From: Fidelibacterota bacterium
GTDB taxonomy: Bacteria; Pseudomonadota; Alphaproteobacteria; Rhodospirillales; Rhodospirillaceae
Direction of reading: 5' to 3'
DNA length: 64,000 nucleotides
Assembly (NCBI GenBank): GCA_947475895.1
Contig: CANJMF010000001.1
Location: 186,001-250,000 of the forward strand
The notes below the pieces were generated by a model. The model had not been told where the DNA came from, ran no database searches, and was given only the letters and a program-made list of their open reading frames with translations. Positions 50,116 to 56,738 of the stretch are shown piece by piece (within the stretch, counting starts at the first letter, position 1; each line of letters opens with the position of its first letter). Made by a program: the position numbers and the translations under genes.

Positions 50116-50532
50116 ATGGTGATCACCGGTGGCTGCATCTGCAAAGCCGTGCGTTACGAAGTTACCTCGGAGCCTGTCGGAACCCGCGTGTGTTGGTGTC
50201 GCGACTGCCAATATTGGGCTTCGGGCAGCGCAACCGTGAACGTGATTTTCAAAAAAGAAGCCGTGAAAATCACGGGCGCATTGACCGATTATGCAAGCCC
50301 TGCCGACAGCGGCAGCCATATGCATCGGCACTTCTGCCCTACGTGCGGCACACCGGTTTTCAGCTCGGCCGAAGAGCGCCCAAACTTAATTATCGCGCGC
50401 GCAGGTACGCTGGATAATCCGGAAGTCGCAAACCCGACGTCGACAATTTGGACGGCAAGTGCGCCGTCGTGGGCGTGCATCAGCGAAACCCTGCCACGCT
50501 TCGACGCACAGCCGCCGCCGATCAAAACCTAA
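50116..50532 (+). CDS. GFA/CENP-V-family zinc protein
   Basis: 138 aa. The conserved cysteines are [12 protein letters not shown] (C-x-C), [10 protein letters not shown] and [12 protein letters not shown], all zinc ligands of the glutathione-dependent formaldehyde-activating (GFA) fold. The function of most members is unknown. Nine nt after the epimerase, it is probably the same transcript. Its stop interlocks with tsaD (CTAA). Confidence 0.88.
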
Positions 50533-51569
50533 GCTTTTACGCCGGCACCGCGTGCGGGTGCGGCAGTTGGATCGAGCGGCCAGCGCGGGCGGGGTTTGAA
50601 ATCCAAAGGATCACTGATTCCTTTTTGCGCGCGAGCGAGACCGGCCCACGCGATCATCACGGCGTTGTCGGTGCAAAGGGCGACGGGTGGCGCGACGAAA
50701 GCAAAGCCCGCTTTCGTGCAAGTATTCGTAAGCCCTTCGCGCAAAGCCGTATTGGCGGCGACACCGCCCGAAGCCACGAGCGTGCGGCCTTCGGGAAAAA
50801 TCTCTACCGCCCGGCGGACGCGATCGCAGATCGCATCGACGATGGCGGCTTGAAACGACGCGGCGACGTCGGCCACGTCGATGTCTGAAAGCGCGCCCAT
50901 ATCTTCAACCGTCATGCGCACGGCGGTCTTCAATCCCGAGAAGGAAAAATCGCAGCCGGGTTTTCCTTTCATGGGGCGCGGAAAGGGGAAGCGCTTTGGA
51001 TCGCCTTTTTCGGCGGCGCGCGCGAGGGCGGGGCCGCCTGGGTATCCAAGCCCGATCATCTTCGCCACTTTATCGAAGGCTTCGCCGGCCGCGTCGTCGA
51101 TGGTGGTGCCGAGGCGGCGATAGCGGCCGACCCCTTCCACCGCCAACAATTGGCAATGACCACCCGAGACCAACAGCAGCAAATAGGGAAACGCGACGCC
51201 GTTGCTGAAGTGGGCGGTGAGTGCGTGACCTTCCAGATGATTGACGGCGATGAAGGGAATCTTGTGCACGACGGCGATGGCCTTGGCGGTCATGACGCCG
51301 ACGATGACGCCGCCAATGAGACCCGGACCGGCCGTGGCCGCGACCGCTGTCAGATCTTTGAAGGCCACGCCCGCGTCGCCCATGACCTGGGCGATCAAGC
51401 TGTCGAGGTGCGCCATATGAGAGCGGGCCGCGATCTCGGGCACGATGCCGCCAAAGGGCCTGTGTTCTGCGACCTGGCTCAAAACCACCTCGGCCAGCAC
51501 CTTGCCGTCACCCTCGACAAGGGCGGCAGCGGTCTCGTCGCAGCTAGTTTCGATACCTAAAACAAGCAC
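50529..51569 (-). CDS. tsaD: tRNA N6-threonylcarbamoyladenosine synthase subunit TsaD
   Basis: Catalytic subunit that transfers threonylcarbamoyl to A37 of ANN-decoding tRNAs. The protein is 346 aa. It starts [20 protein letters not shown], carries the metal motif [12 protein letters not shown] (HxxxH) and the C-terminal ATP-binding part [16 protein letters not shown]. It is complete. It needs TsaB and TsaE; tsaB lies 6 kb away on the plus strand. Confidence 0.97.
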
Positions 51570-51633: not shown

Positions 51634-54600
51634 ATGCGGGTTCTGATCACACAATCGGCCCAAGACGCAACCGCCACGGCAGCCCAATTGGCCGCGCGTG
51701 GGCACCAGGTGCTGTCCGTGCCGCTGGTGACGCTTGAACGTGTCGCCGCGCAGCCGAACTTGGCGAACGCGCAAGGGTTTTTGGTCACGAGCCCCGAAGG
51801 CGCGCGGGCGCTGGCCGATGCGATTGGCGTGCGCACCTTTCCCGTGTTTTCGGAAAGCGAAGTGACGGCGGGTGAATTGCGCCGGCTGGGCTTCAGCAAT
51901 GTGCATGCGGCGAAGGACGATGCCGCCGATTTAGCGCGGCTGGTGGAGCGCACACTGAAGCCCGCCAACGGCGCGCTGGTGTTTGCCTGCAGCACAACAG
52001 CGCCCATTCAGTTGTCGGCGTTATTGGGCAACATGGGTTTTGCGGTGCGGGCGTTGCCGCTGTTCAACATCAAGCGCGTGACGGACTTGCGCGCGGACCT
52101 GAGGCGCGGACTTGAGACGCACGCCATAGACGCCGCGCTATTCCTCACGCCCGACGAGGCGCGCGCCTTCACGGCGCTGATGCTTCAGGAAAAAATGGAA
52201 GCCCATATCGCGGAGCTGCCGACGGTGGCCGCAACACCCATCGTGGCGGCACCCTTGCGCGCGTTGTCATTGGGTGGCGTGAGCGTGCCGCCGGCGGGCG
52301 ATCTCGATACGATCTTGAGTGCGCTCGATGAAAAGCTGGTGGACCGCATCAGCGATGAGCGCCGCGCCCGCGAGCAAAAAGCAAAAGACGACGCCGAGCG
52401 CCAACGCGCGGACGAAGAACGACGCGCGCAAGAACAGATCGCGCGCGAACGTCAGCAGCGCGAGGCCGAAAAACATGCGCGTGCTGAAGCCGCACGAATC
52501 GCGGCGGAAAAAGCAGCGGCAGAAAAAGCGGCGCGCGAGAAAGCTGAGGCCGAGCGCCTTGCGAAGGAAGAAGCGGCGCGCGTCGAGGCAGAACGCAAGC
52601 GGCTGGAGAAAGAACAAGCGGAGCGCGAAAAGGCCGAGAAACAAAGGCGCACTGAAGAACAAGCGGCAGCGGCCCGTGCGGAGAAAGCGCGGCTGGCGGC
52701 CGAAAAAACGGAGCAGGCGCGCGTCGCACGCGAGAAGGCGGCAGCGGAAAAAGCCGCGCGGGACAGGCTTGCACGCGAGGACGCTGACAAAGCCCGCGCT
52801 GAAAAGGCACGGATCGATGCGGAGCGCGTTGAGGCCGAGCGCATTGCGCGCGAGACGGCAGCCGCGGAGAAAGTCGAGCGCGAACGCTTAGCGCACGAGT
52901 CGGCTGAGAAAGCCCGTACAGAGAAGGCGCGCGTTGATGCGGAGCGTGCCGAAGCCGAGCGTATCGCGCGCGAGAAGGCAGCGGCCGAGAAAGCCGAGCG
53001 CGAGCGCCTCGCGCGCGAAGAAGCCGCGCGACAACATGCGGAAAAAGTTAAGCGCGCGGAAGAAAAGGCTGAACAAGATCGCATTGAGCGCGAGCGCTTG
53101 ACGAAGGAGCGCGCCGAACAAGACCGCATCAAGCGCGAACAAGACGAAGCCGCGCGAATCGAACGCGAACGATTGGCAGCAGAGCGCGCAGAACAGGACC
53201 GCATTGAGCGCGAACGTCGCGCAAAAGAGAAGGCAGACTTCGACGCAGCGGACTTTGCGGCGGCGGAAAAAGTCCGCGCGGAGAAGGAGCGCGTCGCCGC
53301 AGAGAAAGCCGAGCAGGATCGGATCGCGCGGGAAAAAGCGGCAGCGGAAAGAATCGAACGCGATCGCATCGAAGCCGAACGCGTCGCCGCCGACCGCGCG
53401 GAGAAGGAACGCCGCGCGTTAGAGTTAGCTGAACAAAAGCGCTTGGAGCAAGAACGCCTCGCCGCCGAAAAGACCGCGCAGGATCATCTACGTGCGGAAG
53501 AAGCGGCGCGCGCGTTAGCCGAGCAAGCGCGTGTCAAACAAGAACGCGAACAAGCTGAGCAAGTCGCCCGCGAAAAAGCGGCGGCGGAAAAAGCCGAGCG
53601 GGACCGCTTAGCCCATGAGGAGAAAGAACGCGCGCGGGCAGAGAAGGAACGTATCGCGGCCGAACGCGCCGCCGCAGCGGCCGAGCGCGACCGTCTTGCG
53701 CAGGAAGAAAAAGAGCGTGTGCGTGCGGAGAAAGCGCGCATCGCGGCGGAACGCGCTGCAGAAGAAAGCGCCGCCAAAGCGCGCGCGGCAGCCGAAAAAG
53801 CCGAACGTGACGCTCAGGCTCAGGCGGAAAAAGAGAAATTCAGACTGGCCCGCGAAGCCGAAAAGCAGGCCGCGCGGGACGCGGCCGCTGCGGCAAAAGC
53901 AGCCCGCAAGGCTGCCGCCGAAGCTGAGGCCGCCAGTCGGCTAAGCTTGGCTGCGCGGTTGCAGACGTGGCTTAAACCACGCGTTGGCGATGAGCCCGCG
54001 CCCGAAACGCCCGCGCCCCGCGCTTGGAATATGCCGCTTGGCAACACCGAGCCGCTTGTAGATGTCGTTTTAGAGACCGCAGCGATGGCAGCCGCCGCGC
54101 CATCGGCTACAATAGCGGCGGTTGCCGCACCGGACGATTCACCACCACCACCACCGTTTATTTCGCCAAAGCCCGACGCCGTCGCGCCGCAGCCAAAGGA
54201 AGATCCTGTGCCGCCTAATTTACCCAACGTGGAAGCCACGCCTGTTTCGCCGCCGACTTCCGAGCCTGAGTCGCAGGACGAACAACGTGAGGACCGTAAA
54301 CGCGAAGCGCCGCCGCTGACCGGTGGACGCGCGGCGCGCTTGCAGGCCGAGGACGCGGCAGATCATGTGGCGGCCAGCCAGCGGTTTCGCCACTTCAACT
54401 TCAGCGACACGCCGCCCGAACCCGCCGCGAGTGCGGCTTACGAAGAGACGCCGCCACCACCGCCGCGTCGCCGCAGTGGCAGCCGCGCGCTGACTTTGTT
54501 TGTCGTGCTGGCGTTGATTGTCGTGGGCGCGCTGTGGGCCATGCCCCGCATCGACCGCGCGTTAACGCCAACGACGCCTGCAACGACGCCACCGCCGCCG

Positions 54601-55491
54601 ATCGTGGCTGCGCCGGCGACTCCTCCGGTCGCGCCGGTCGTTGCGCCGGAACCAAAAACAGCGGCTGCGCCGGCCGCTGAACCCACAGCGCCGAGCAGCC
54701 CGGAAGCGGCCGCATCGTTGAGCGCAACACTTTCAGCGCAAGCCCAACAATTGAGCGCACAAGCCGCGCGCATTGCGACACTCGAAGCGGCCCTCGGCAA
54801 CGCGGCGAAATTGGATGAACTCGCGCGCGAACTGAAAACATTGGAAGCCAGGAGCGCGCAGGCCAACAGCGTGCTCGCCCTTTCGGACCGCGTGACGGCG
54901 CTGGAAACGACTTCGCGCGAAGCCGTCGTCGCGCATACGGCCAGTGTTGCGTTGCTGATGGCGGTGGGACAATGGCGCGACGCCATGAGTGCGGGAAGGC
55001 CGTTCGCGCTGGAACTGGAAACCACGAAGGCCGTCGCGGCGCGCAGCGGCACGAGCGCCATCGACGACAGCGCTTATGCGAGCTTCGCCGCGCGCGGCAT
55101 TCCGACACTTGCCGAGCTGCAACGCCGCTTTGGTGAAACCGCGGCGGCTGCCGTACGCGCCGACGCCCTGCCGAACGGTGCGTCGAACTGGAGCAAGCGG
55201 ATTCTCGAACGCATGTTGGCCATCGTCACCATTCGACGCATCGACGGCGATGTGGCGGGCACCGATACGCACGCGATCCTGGCGCGCGCCGAGCGCCGCG
55301 TGACCGAAGGCAATCTTGCGGCCGCCGCCGCTGAAATGAGTGCACTGACAGCGGCACCTGCGGCAGTCTCCGTCACCTGGCTCGACGCCGCCAAGGCGCG
55401 CGTGGCGGTCGAGCAAAGCATCGCCGACACAACAACGCGCGCTGTGGCCGCTTTGGCCGCGGGCACCGACAAACCGGCGAAGGGCGAATAA
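51634..55491 (+). CDS. hemD: HemD - helical rod - Mic60 (mitofilin) fusion protein
   Basis: 1285 aa. Residues 1-230 are uroporphyrinogen-III synthase (MRVLITQSAQDATATAAQLA; GFLVTSPEGARALADAIG; ALFLTPDEARAFTALM), which closes the tetrapyrrole ring. Residues about 235-770 are almost only A, E, R, K, Q and D, in one uninterrupted helix-forming stretch. From 352 to 671 this is eight exact 40-residue units. A Pro/Ala linker (775-945) precedes one TM (about 952-971), with RRRSGSR on its N-side, so the N-terminus should be cytoplasmic. Beyond it a short coiled coil (1028-1090) and a mitofilin-like domain (about 1110-1270; IPTLAELQRRFGETAAAAVR, NWSKRILERMLAIVTIRRID) face the periplasm. Alphaproteobacteria usually have separate hemD and mic60 genes here. 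hemC, normally just upstream, is missing. Confidence 0.85.
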   Translation: MRVLITQSAQDATATAAQLAARGHQVLSVPLVTLERVAAQPNLANAQGFLVTSPEGARALADAIGVRTFPVFSESEVTAGELRRLGFSNVHAAKDDAADLARLVERTLKPANGALVFACSTTAPIQLSALLGNMGFAVRALPLFNIKRVTDLRADLRRGLETHAIDAALFLTPDEARAFTALMLQEKMEAHIAELPTVAATPIVAAPLRALSLGGVSVPPAGDLDTILSALDEKLVDRISDERRAREQKAKDDAERQRADEERRAQEQIARERQQREAEKHARAEAARIAAEKAAAEKAAREKAEAERLAKEEAARVEAERKRLEKEQAEREKAEKQRRTEEQAAAARAEKARLAAEKTEQARVAREKAAAEKAARDRLAREDADKARAEKARIDAERVEAERIARETAAAEKVERERLAHESAEKARTEKARVDAERAEAERIAREKAAAEKAERERLAREEAARQHAEKVKRAEEKAEQDRIERERLTKERAEQDRIKREQDEAARIERERLAAERAEQDRIERERRAKEKADFDAADFAAAEKVRAEKERVAAEKAEQDRIAREKAAAERIERDRIEAERVAADRAEKERRALELAEQKRLEQERLAAEKTAQDHLRAEEAARALAEQARVKQEREQAEQVAREKAAAEKAERDRLAHEEKERARAEKERIAAERAAAAAERDRLAQEEKERVRAEKARIAAERAAEESAAKARAAAEKAERDAQAQAEKEKFRLAREAEKQAARDAAAAAKAARKAAAEAEAASRLSLAARLQTWLKPRVGDEPAPETPAPRAWNMPLGNTEPLVDVVLETAAMAAAAPSATIAAVAAPDDSPPPPPFISPKPDAVAPQPKEDPVPPNLPNVEATPVSPPTSEPESQDEQREDRKREAPPLTGGRAARLQAEDAADHVAASQRFRHFNFSDTPPEPAASAAYEETPPPPPRRRSGSRALTLFVVLALIVVGALWAMPRIDRALTPTTPATTPPPPIVAAPATPPVAPVVAPEPKTAAAPAAEPTAPSSPEAAASLSATLSAQAQQLSAQAARIATLEAALGNAAKLDELARELKTLEARSAQANSVLALSDRVTALETTSREAVVAHTASVALLMAVGQWRDAMSAGRPFALELETTKAVAARSGTSAIDDSAYASFAARGIPTLAELQRRFGETAAAAVRADALPNGASNWSKRILERMLAIVTIRRIDGDVAGTDTHAILARAERRVTEGNLAAAAAEMSALTAAPAAVSVTWLDAAKARVAVEQSIADTTTRAVAALAAGTDKPAKGE
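52687..53646 (+). repeat. Eight in-register 120-bp tandem repeats (40-residue units)
   Basis: Units start at 52687, 52807, 52927, 53047, 53167, 53287, 53407 and 53527. The consensus begins A/E-R-[ILV]-x-A-E-[KR] and ends A-E-K. Units 1-3 and 8 are most alike, e.g. ARVDAERAEAERIAREKAAA. A shortened unit (29 residues) and one more full-length unit follow up to about 53853. The exact length conservation shows that the rod grew by duplication. Confidence 0.85.
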
Positions 55492-55493
55492 CC

Positions 55494-56738
55494 ATGCGCC
55501 GCCTTTTCTTCTTTGTCGTTGTCGTAGCACTTCTGGTGTCCGCCGCCGTGTGGCTGGCGGACGATCCCGGCAGTATCACGATGGTTTGGCGCGGATGGCG
55601 TGTCGACACGTCGGTGGGTGTTTTGGTCGCGGTGTTTTTGGCGTTGCTTGCGGTCGCGCTGTTATTCTTGCGGATCGTGGCCGTGCTGTCGGGCAGCCTT
55701 CGCGGGTTCCTGGCGCGCCGGCGTGAGCAACGCATCCAGCGGGGCCTCACGAGTTTGGGCGACGGCTTTGCGGCCGTGCAAGCGGGACAGCCCGATCTCG
55801 CGCGCCGCTTGGCCAAAGAAGCGTCCTCGCTTTTGAACAACAATCCGGCGGCGCTGGTGTTGCGCAAAGAGGCCGCTGCGCTGGGTGGGGACGTGCGTGA
55901 AATGCATGAGGCTGCGACGGCGATGCTGTCGCGCCGCGAGACGGAGTTGGCTGGCTTGCGCGCGTTGGCCAACAAAGCGTCTACGGAAGGCGACGTTGTC
56001 GGCGCGCTGAATCACGCACGCAAAGCGTTGAGCCGTAAGGATGCGCCGACCTGGGCGTTGCGCATGGCGCTGGACGCCGAGATTTTCGCCGAGCATTGGG
56101 ACGAGTCCTTGTCTGCGCTTGACAGCCGCCTGGGACGCCAAGCGTTCTCGCGCGTCGAACACGCGCGGCTGATGAGTCAGTTGTTGGTGCGCCAATCCGA
56201 CGCGCTTTTGCGGCAGGGCGACGCGCCGGGTGCTGCGGTGTCGGCAAAGAAAGCCATGGGTATCGCCGGACATTCGCGCGAAGCCGTGGTGGCCTTCGCA
56301 AAATCCATGGCAGCGCAAGGCAAGGGCCGTAAGGCTGCCAATGCCGTGGAGCGCGCGTGGGCCGAAGCGCCTCATCCGGATTTGCTGGCGGCCTATCGTG
56401 TGCTGGTTCCAAACGAGTCGGCGCTGAATTGGGCCAAGCGAATCGAGACCTTGGTCGAGAGTTCGCCTGACGATGTGGAAAGCCGCCTAGCCGTCGCTGA
56501 AGCCTCGTTGCAGGCGGAGCTTTGGGGCCAAGCCCGCAGCCGCTTGTCGGGTCTTACGGCCGAAACCATTGATCCGAACGTGCGGGCGCGCGCCGCACAC
56601 TTGTTGGCCGACCTTGAGACGCGCCAGCGCGGCGACGCGGAAGCGGCCGCCGATTGGTTGAAGCTGGCATTGGAATTTCATCGCGCGGGTGCGCGGCGCG
56701 CGGTTCCGCGTTCGGCTGCTGAATTGCTCGCGTCTTAA
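55494..56738 (+). CDS. hemY: HemY-like TPR membrane protein
   Basis: 414 aa. Two N-terminal membrane helices (about 3-22 and 40-63) precede the HemY_N region GFLARRREQRIQRGLTSLGD. TPR-like helices follow (DLARRLAKEASSLLNNNP, GDVVGALNHARKALSRKD, GDAEAAADWLKLALEFH). This is the tetratricopeptide protein named HemY in hem operons, not protoporphyrinogen oxidase. It lies 2 nt behind the HemD-Mic60 gene, the standard order hemD-mic60-hemY. The stop interlocks with the dipeptidase gene (TTAA). Confidence 0.9.
   Translation: MRRLFFFVVVVALLVSAAVWLADDPGSITMVWRGWRVDTSVGVLVAVFLALLAVALLFLRIVAVLSGSLRGFLARRREQRIQRGLTSLGDGFAAVQAGQPDLARRLAKEASSLLNNNPAALVLRKEAAALGGDVREMHEAATAMLSRRETELAGLRALANKASTEGDVVGALNHARKALSRKDAPTWALRMALDAEIFAEHWDESLSALDSRLGRQAFSRVEHARLMSQLLVRQSDALLRQGDAPGAAVSAKKAMGIAGHSREAVVAFAKSMAAQGKGRKAANAVERAWAEAPHPDLLAAYRVLVPNESALNWAKRIETLVESSPDDVESRLAVAEASLQAELWGQARSRLSGLTAETIDPNVRARAAHLLADLETRQRGDAEAAADWLKLALEFHRAGARRAVPRSAAELLAS

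Follow-up and report, generated by a model that had tools for sequence, protein, structure and literature searches.

A Mic60 homologue carrying a probable pseudo-uroporphyrinogen-III synthase on a long predicted single alpha-helix in a clade of Alphaproteobacteria

The window, by which we mean the whole 64,000-nucleotide stretch of contig CANJMF010000001.1 that was analysed, contains on its forward strand a frame (51634-55491) that is open throughout its 1285 codons and joins a HemD domain, i.e. that of uroporphyrinogen-III synthase (UROS), and the membrane protein Mic60 in one protein, as had been stated in a first-pass annotation of the same DNA. We consider it fairly probable that this protein is a long, flexible cytoplasmic tether, formed by a single alpha-helix and anchored by Mic60, with a pseudo-UROS head that is no longer the UROS of the cell. 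The first-pass annotation had taken the tethered part to be the haem enzyme itself. This was not supported, as a second HemD (HemD2) encoded beside hemB keeps the residues that are conserved in working HemDs, most of which have been lost from the fused copy (HemD1). A tethered haem enzyme probably describes the relatives of the clade, but not the protein of the window.

Architecture of the fusion protein

The gene encodes, in this order, the pseudo-HemD domain, a rod, a proline-rich linker, a transmembrane (TM) segment and the C-terminal part of Mic60, all on the forward strand. HemD1 (residues 1-235; 51634-52338) is matched by the Pfam family HEM4 (PF02602) over residues 15-223 with an E-value of 2e-19 and 70.1 bits against a cut-off of 27.5. 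The rod (residues 236-781; 52339-53976) leads into the Pro-rich, putatively cytoplasmic linker (residues 782-951; 53977-54486) and the only TM segment of the protein, ALTLFVVLALIVVGALWAMP (residues 952-971; 54487-54546), the latter lying where it had been annotated. Within the 15 residues on either side of this segment, four Arg or Lys residues are found on the Arg-rich N side compared to two on the C side, which favours a cytoplasmic location of the N side and, as had been proposed earlier, of the rod. The predicted periplasmic part (54547-55488) comprises a helical region and the mitofilin domain (PF09731; residues 1056-1261, 54799-55416; E 1.3e-14, above the Pfam cut-off), and the profile of this half also matches the solved Mic60-Mic19 structure 7pv1 (E 4e-12), in agreement with the annotated Mic60/mitofilin domain. 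Foldseek with the predicted C-terminal half gave no match at E <= 0.001 and, thus, membership in the Mic60 family was assigned by sequence profiles; of the two ends of the protein, only the N-terminal one was confirmed by structure prediction (see below).

The C-terminal mitofilin domain and the single TM segment ahead of it are likely to identify the protein as an inner-membrane Mic60 homologue, for which, by analogy, bending of the membrane at crista or intracytoplasmic membrane (ICM) junctions is a putative function. Gene row, orientation, the single TM segment, the helical periplasmic region and the mitofilin domain are common to the Mic60 proteins of Alphaproteobacteria. In contrast to these, the fusion adds about 950 cytoplasmic residues, its gene row is devoid of hemC, and an EDAAD motif precedes the TM segment.

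Two states of the locus

Two locus states were distinguished among the relatives. Genera with a HemD2 or a diverged HemD1 were assigned to state B and the rest to state A, so that the finding of one HemD per state-A genome follows in part from the definition, and loci that were not opened were labelled by their HEM4 count alone. The state-B clade comprises seven genera (g1, g2, g3, g5, g7, g9 and g18) with 33 genomes. In state A, a divergent tsaD is followed by hemC, the hemD~mic60 fusion and hemY, with hemC preceding hemD in all eight loci fetched with their context, and each of the 18 one-frame fusions of the family in this state belongs to a genome with a single HEM4 match. In state B, no HemC was found between TsaD and HemD1 in any of the 31 loci showing both. 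The genome of the window contains two HEM4 proteins, one of which is encoded beside hemB, one mitofilin, and a single hemC on another contig than the fusion. Of the 33 state-B genomes, 28 yielded a HemD2 beside hemB and G035 a partial HemD2; the row hemC-hemD2-hemB is present in nine genomes (g2, g5, g7, g18 and one of g3). In some genus members, HEM4 also matches a third protein with about 117-128 bits (L125:5350-6162, L127, L128 and L129). In G055, hemC and hemD of a different type (166 bits) form a pair, which is either a contamination or a further replacement.

The two states also differ in a motif ahead of the TM segment, GGRAARLQAEDAADHVAASQRF (residues 897-918; 54322-54387), which is of the type GRAARLxAEDAADxRxxxQRF and lies 33 residues away from the TM segment in the window. 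Of the Mic60 frames, 27 of 29 in state B but none of the 31 in state A contain the strict EDAAD core. It is missing in G022 (g5) and G041 (g2) and present in two members of g2 that have no rod, and the motif is, therefore, independent of the rod.

HemD1 keeps the fold and has lost most of the signature

The HemD fold of the N-terminus was borne out by an AlphaFold2 model (pLDDT 88.3 from 16 alignment rows), which displays the two lobes of UROS; the first 13 Foldseek matches to this model were all UROS chains (best TM-score 0.83), and the fold columns are retained in the alignment of state-B HemD1. The NCBIfam equivalog model for UROS gave the fused HemD a score of 18.2 compared to a cut-off of 275 (no control HemD was scored), and phmmer with the HemD1 head of the window yielded no match among the PDB sequences. 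A profile of state-B HemD1 resulted in weak, partial UROS matches in the PDB (best 0.0019), while the state-A profile recovered UROS at 5.4e-9. In a tree of 87 HemD rows, HemD2 (27 rows) forms one group with a support of 99/88 and state-B HemD1 (27 rows) another with 100/100, the latter on a stem of 1.19 changes per site.

As the literature provided no active-site residues of UROS (there was no mention of UROS among the matches listed), a signature was defined by conservation, namely as the 18 columns with conserved residues in state-A HemD1 as well as in HemD2, the two working lineages, and these are not mapped catalytic residues. State-A HemD1 keeps 17-18 of the 18 positions (31 rows) and HemD2 keeps 15-18 (28 rows). 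State-B HemD1 keeps 4-12 (27 rows), a range that overlaps with neither of the two, and HemD1 of the window keeps six. When the columns were chosen from one half of the genera (50 splits), held-out retention was 0.96 for state A, 0.86 for HemD2 and 0.49 for state-B HemD1. The losses in the window include R7 to Q, V75 to E, G76 to S, Y145 to F, R175 to D and P223 to G (reference numbering). V75, D127 and R175 are retained in none of the 27 state-B HemD1 domains, R7 in two and G76 in three; V75 and R175 are replaced by Asp or Glu in all 27 and N56 in 24. Among 28 HemD2 proteins, V75 and D127 are each retained in 27, R175 in 24 and R7 in all, and the pair V75-G76 is present in all five aligned solved UROS chains including the human one. 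The fused copy thus shares with HemD/UROS the Pfam match and the fold of the solved chains, but differs in its signature and in being joined to a membrane protein, while the second HemD keeps the signature. This pattern suggests that HemD1 has lost its catalytic activity.

The state-B HemD1 set covers 27 of the 33 genomes. HemD1 fragments (G011, G043) were left out, as were two genomes with no full HemD1 on the fetched contig (G019, G035) and two whose HemD1 fell below our own hidden Markov model (HMM) threshold although Pfam finds HEM4 (G003, G042); omission of the latter two may make the set look more canonical rather than less. A wrong-frame row of G097, the extra HemD of G055 and antisense open reading frames were likewise left out, and one state-A row (G074) stems from a genome with two HEM4 proteins.

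Despite the loss of the signature, HemD1 is under purifying selection. The ratio of nonsynonymous to synonymous substitution rates (dN/dS) was 0.06-0.26 in 12 pairs of g1 genomes; because genomes recur among these pairs and dS is often above 1, it is safer to compare dN. The dN of HemD1 was lower than that of the Mic60 C-domain in 11 of the 12 pairs and lower than that of HemD2 in all 12, also after HemD2 had been trimmed to its last 222 residues, which excludes doubtful starts. In addition, state-B HemD1 has acquired near-invariant residues that are not seen at these positions in state A: V66, C119, N133, M134, R148, E175 and P207. This conservation fits better with a putative pseudoenzyme retained for a binding job than with decay.

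The rod is predicted to be a single alpha-helix

The first-pass annotation had described a long helix of about 535 residues; the helix stands, and its length was corrected to 546 residues, which contain neither Pro nor Gly, while the 170 residues that follow contain 36 Pro. The rod is built of pentads of the type [A/I/L/V]-E-[R/K]-[E/D]-[R/K] (A-E-R-E-R), and in the window its self-identity peaks at lags of 15, 25, 30, 10 and 5 residues. The underlying DNA contains four arrays of imperfect repeats (76-88% matches), mostly spaced in multiples of 15 nt. Opposite charges at positions i and i+4 are enriched in the rod of the window compared to shuffled sequences (z = +8.6) and like charges are depleted (z = -8.8); in all eight rods scored for salt bridges, the z-score for opposite charges was 8.6-11.9, and periodicity was determined for 14 long rods. 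Charged residues make up 53% of the rod, and its net charge is +3 in the window and between -11 and +5 over the eight rods.

The hydrophobic power of the rod in the window was 0.4, 1.0 and 0.8 at periods of 3.5, 3.67 and 3.75, but 16 at a period of 5. With hydrophobic residues five positions apart, each is rotated by 140 degrees relative to the one before, and a seam does not form. The window rod thus displays the features of a single alpha-helix (SAH), a Pro/Gly-free sequence of E, R, K and A with opposite charges at i/i+4 and no heptad, hendecad or 15/4 seam, and is predicted from this pattern to be an SAH rather than a coiled coil, the two options between which the first-pass annotation had left the choice. 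A coiled coil was judged unlikely, since heptad power was at most 1.6 in the 14 long rods and hendecad power was weak. An origin of the rod in another protein of the genome, such as TolA, which it resembles, was rejected: a search of the own genome, in which 150 of 185 candidates were scored, matched only the rod itself at E <= 0.001. The rod ends (about 53940-53985) in an amphipathic-looking segment, LSLAARLQTWLKP; similar segments (SLLGSLFSWLSRP and others) form the rod end in g18 and are found repeatedly within the Pro-rich g7 linker.

SAHs typically comprise 40 to about 200 residues and have a persistence length of about 15 nm (PMC5347031). The rod shares with these ER/K domains the richness in E, R, K and A, the lack of Pro and Gly, the i/i+4 salt bridges and the missing heptad; it differs in its length and in its location in a bacterial membrane protein. 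The contour length of the rod amounts to 82 nm at 0.15 nm per residue, in line with the earlier estimate of about 80 nm, but with the above persistence length the typical reach would be about 45 nm root mean square. The rod should, therefore, act as a flexible tether and not as a stiff spacer.

Distribution of fusion and rod

Of the 99 genomes in the search for relatives, which include the window, 49 have HemD and Mic60 in one frame: 14 of 19 in the genus (window included), 26 of 41 among other members of the family and 9 of 39 in other families of the order. A sample of the class (114 genomes, the window among them) added 14 further fusions, each from a different family of another order. The counts are based on HEM4 and Mitofilin matches read together as equal frame lengths on one contig; some of the Mitofilin matches counted are below the Pfam cut-off (G022, G039 and G052, and G126 and G206 in the class sample), and the HEM4 match of G043 is partial. 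Both an assembly collapse or frame artefact and a fusion unique to the genome of the window are thus ruled out, the former by the 14 one-frame genus members and the imperfect rod repeats, the latter by the relatives and the class sample. Among the genus members with no one-frame fusion, the domains are located on different contigs in G010, G013 and G018, while in G009 and G017 (loci L073 and L081) the frame is broken on one contig at different places between the domains. In one of the 14 one-frame members, G011 (L075), a frameshift removes the N-terminal part of HemD1. These breaks in G009, G017 and G011 are either real splits or assembly errors. In G055 (L005/L131), HemD1~Mic60 is cut by contig ends.

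The view that these genes are normally separate is, accordingly, half the picture. The row hemC-hemD-mitofilin-hemY beside tsaD-gpsA has been described for Alphaproteobacteria, and no fusion is mentioned in the part of that account that deals with it (PMC7641849). A literature search on Mic60 or mitofilin together with HemD or uroporphyrinogen revealed no description of a fusion; some papers on Mic60 evolution lay outside this search, and we do not claim that the fusion is novel.

The long rod has a narrower distribution than the fusion. Linkers were measured in one-frame fusions with more than 90 bits for both domains (18 of state B and 20 of 27 of state A, the other seven not fetched). Pro-free stretches of 354-667 residues were present in 14 of the 18 state-B fusions (g1, g3 and g9), and a fragment from g18 also carries a long Pro-free rod. 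The state-A fusions have the same domain order as the window, but their linkers comprise 28-169 residues, and the longest Pro-free stretch did not exceed 49 residues in any of the 20.

Proposed mechanism

The fusion might have evolved as follows. The adjacent HemD and Mic60 of a hemC-hemD-mic60-hemY operon would have been joined into one protein in the ancestors, in line with the widespread fusion. In one clade, a HemD2 with hemB, and in some genera also hemC, as its neighbour would have taken over the synthesis of uroporphyrinogen III; the gene content of the two states is consistent with hemC having left the Mic60 locus, this direction being the one we propose. Released from catalysis, HemD1 would have lost conserved residues in a burst and would then have come under strong purifying selection with new near-invariant residues, an order that fits the pattern of substitutions, and in a subset of genera, as their distribution suggests, the short linker may have grown into the rod. 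In the present protein, Mic60 would anchor the base where the membrane is curved or specialised, and the rod would enable the HemD1 head to explore, or to bridge, a cytoplasmic distance of tens of nanometres. By its new conserved surface, the head may bind a partner, candidates being a protein of the haem pathway or the HemD1 head on another rod, and an arm of about 45 nm would gather such partners around the Mic60 site or link a second membrane. Alphaproteobacterial Mic60 has been reported to deform membranes in vitro, and its deletion to reduce growth where ICMs are needed (PMC12136173). It might tentatively be speculated that the discarded haem enzyme has become a docking head and Mic60 a 'fishing rod' that captures haem-pathway enzymes or another membrane, with a helix among the longest natural SAHs. 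The literature searched showed no comparable cytoplasmic arm for any Mic60.

Several observations weigh against this explanation. R175 and D127 are also not retained in the aligned solved UROS chains, and human UROS is not known to carry the N-terminal Arg. Tyr145, which is common to all aligned solved chains reaching that position, is retained in 25 of the 27 state-B HemD1 domains, although the window has Phe at this position. As the UROS family is variable, loss of the signature argues strongly, but not finally, for lost catalysis. HemD2 was not found in four state-B genomes (G017, G018, G024 and G055). G017 is 76% complete and no hemB was found in it, the hemB match of G018 is a fragment of 180 codons, and G055 was searched for HemD2 by the Pfam model only, which matched other HEM4 proteins. 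G024 is rated 99% complete, and hemB was not found there with a query from its own genus, so that an assembly gap may be the cause; if HemD2 is really absent, the fused HemD would be the only HemD of G024. cysH is located just upstream of hemD2 in 13 of 17 g1 genomes, in g9 and in another genome of g3 than the one with the hemC row, which would also fit a HemD2 dedicated to sirohaem. With regard to the rod, hendecad power (3.67) reached 3.0-3.6 in G002, G005 and G007, about the level at period 3.5 (3.1) of the coiled-coil control, Mic60's own helical segment, a single and weak control of 60 residues, and hydrophobic power at period 5 exceeded 3.5 in only 8 of the 14 long rods, the clean pentad of the window thus not being general; a partial seam may exist in the rods of some relatives. 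Finally, the rod is missing from g2 and g5, where the linkers are short, and is replaced in g7 by a long linker rich in Pro. In these genera the job of HemD1 does not, therefore, require a rod, and since the signature is lost in g2 and g5 as well, the rod is either a later step or was lost there.

Alternative explanations

Rather than being a pseudoenzyme, the fused HemD could still be an active UROS at the membrane, with HemD2 as a second enzyme, dedicated for example to sirohaem for the adjacent sulphate-reduction genes, an explanation we regard as rather unlikely. HemD1 has retained its fold and is under purifying selection, and the conserved Tyr145 and the cysH neighbourhood point in the same direction; moreover, in the 18 state-A genomes of the family with a one-frame fusion, HEM4 matches no protein other than the fused HemD, and fusion and activity are therefore compatible. 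However, the substrate of UROS carries eight carboxylates, which makes acidic side chains at conserved neutral or basic positions odd, and residues that HemD2 mostly keeps are missing from all (V75, D127, R175) or 25 (R7) of the 27 domains. Moreover, the fused locus has no hemC, whereas nine genomes have hemD2 between hemC and hemB, and four g1 genomes (G002, G004, G005 and G012) have hemD2 beside hemB with no cysH.

It is less likely still that HemD1 and rod are leftovers, i.e. that HemD1 merely happens to be in frame upstream of Mic60 and that the rod is a neutral expansion of low complexity. Repeats spaced mostly in multiples of 15 nt commonly arise by slippage or unequal exchange, the length of the Pro-free rod is variable, and the frame breaks in two genus members and the frameshift within HemD1 in a third would fit such an origin. 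The low dN/dS and the new near-invariant residues of HemD1 argue against it, as do 546 residues free of Pro and Gly beside a stretch so rich in Pro, with rods in 14 of 18 fusions, which would be unexpected with no selection for a helix; the i/i+4 charge pattern in all eight rods scored adds to this. Least convincing is a role of the rod as a binding surface for nucleic acid, ribosomes or polyphosphate instead of a tether, which we consider very improbable. The helix is charge-dense, and the charged single helices of CAF-1 and INCENP bind DNA and microtubules, respectively (PMC10335832, PMC4571873), but the net charge of the rod is close to zero, unlike that of a basic nucleic-acid binder. The Mic60-anchored tether with a pseudo-UROS head, thus, remains the explanation we favour.

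Significance

We know of no explanation for the place of Mic60 in the haem operons of Alphaproteobacteria. In the state-B clade, a second gene seems to have taken over the enzymatic task, and yet the HemD domain stays on Mic60 and is conserved. A structural and a catalytic reason for the link between haem synthesis and Mic60 are thereby separated and can be tested with one protein. Among the components that shape mitochondrial cristae, Mic60 is considered the oldest (PMC7050145). The rod, in turn, would widen the described size range of SAHs and provide a natural example of 546 residues for expression.

Neighbouring genes and origin of the genomes

Upstream of the fusion, the divergent tsaD is located on the reverse strand (50529-51569). 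Downstream, a membrane protein is encoded on the forward strand (55494-56738), its start lying 2 nt past the stop codon of the fusion; this neighbouring 'hemY' is more exactly the gene of a HemY_N protein (PF07219) with tetratricopeptide repeats (TPR). The state-B members are nearly all metagenome-assembled genomes or 'uncultured' isolates. Among 32 loci with labels, 15 are assigned to Rhodospirillaceae, 10 to Candidatus Marinimicrobia, which is probably wrong, three to Alphaproteobacteria, two to uncultured bacterium and one each to Proteobacteria and Caenispirillum. Four isolate names of the clade refer to lakes, three to Baikal and one to Erken.

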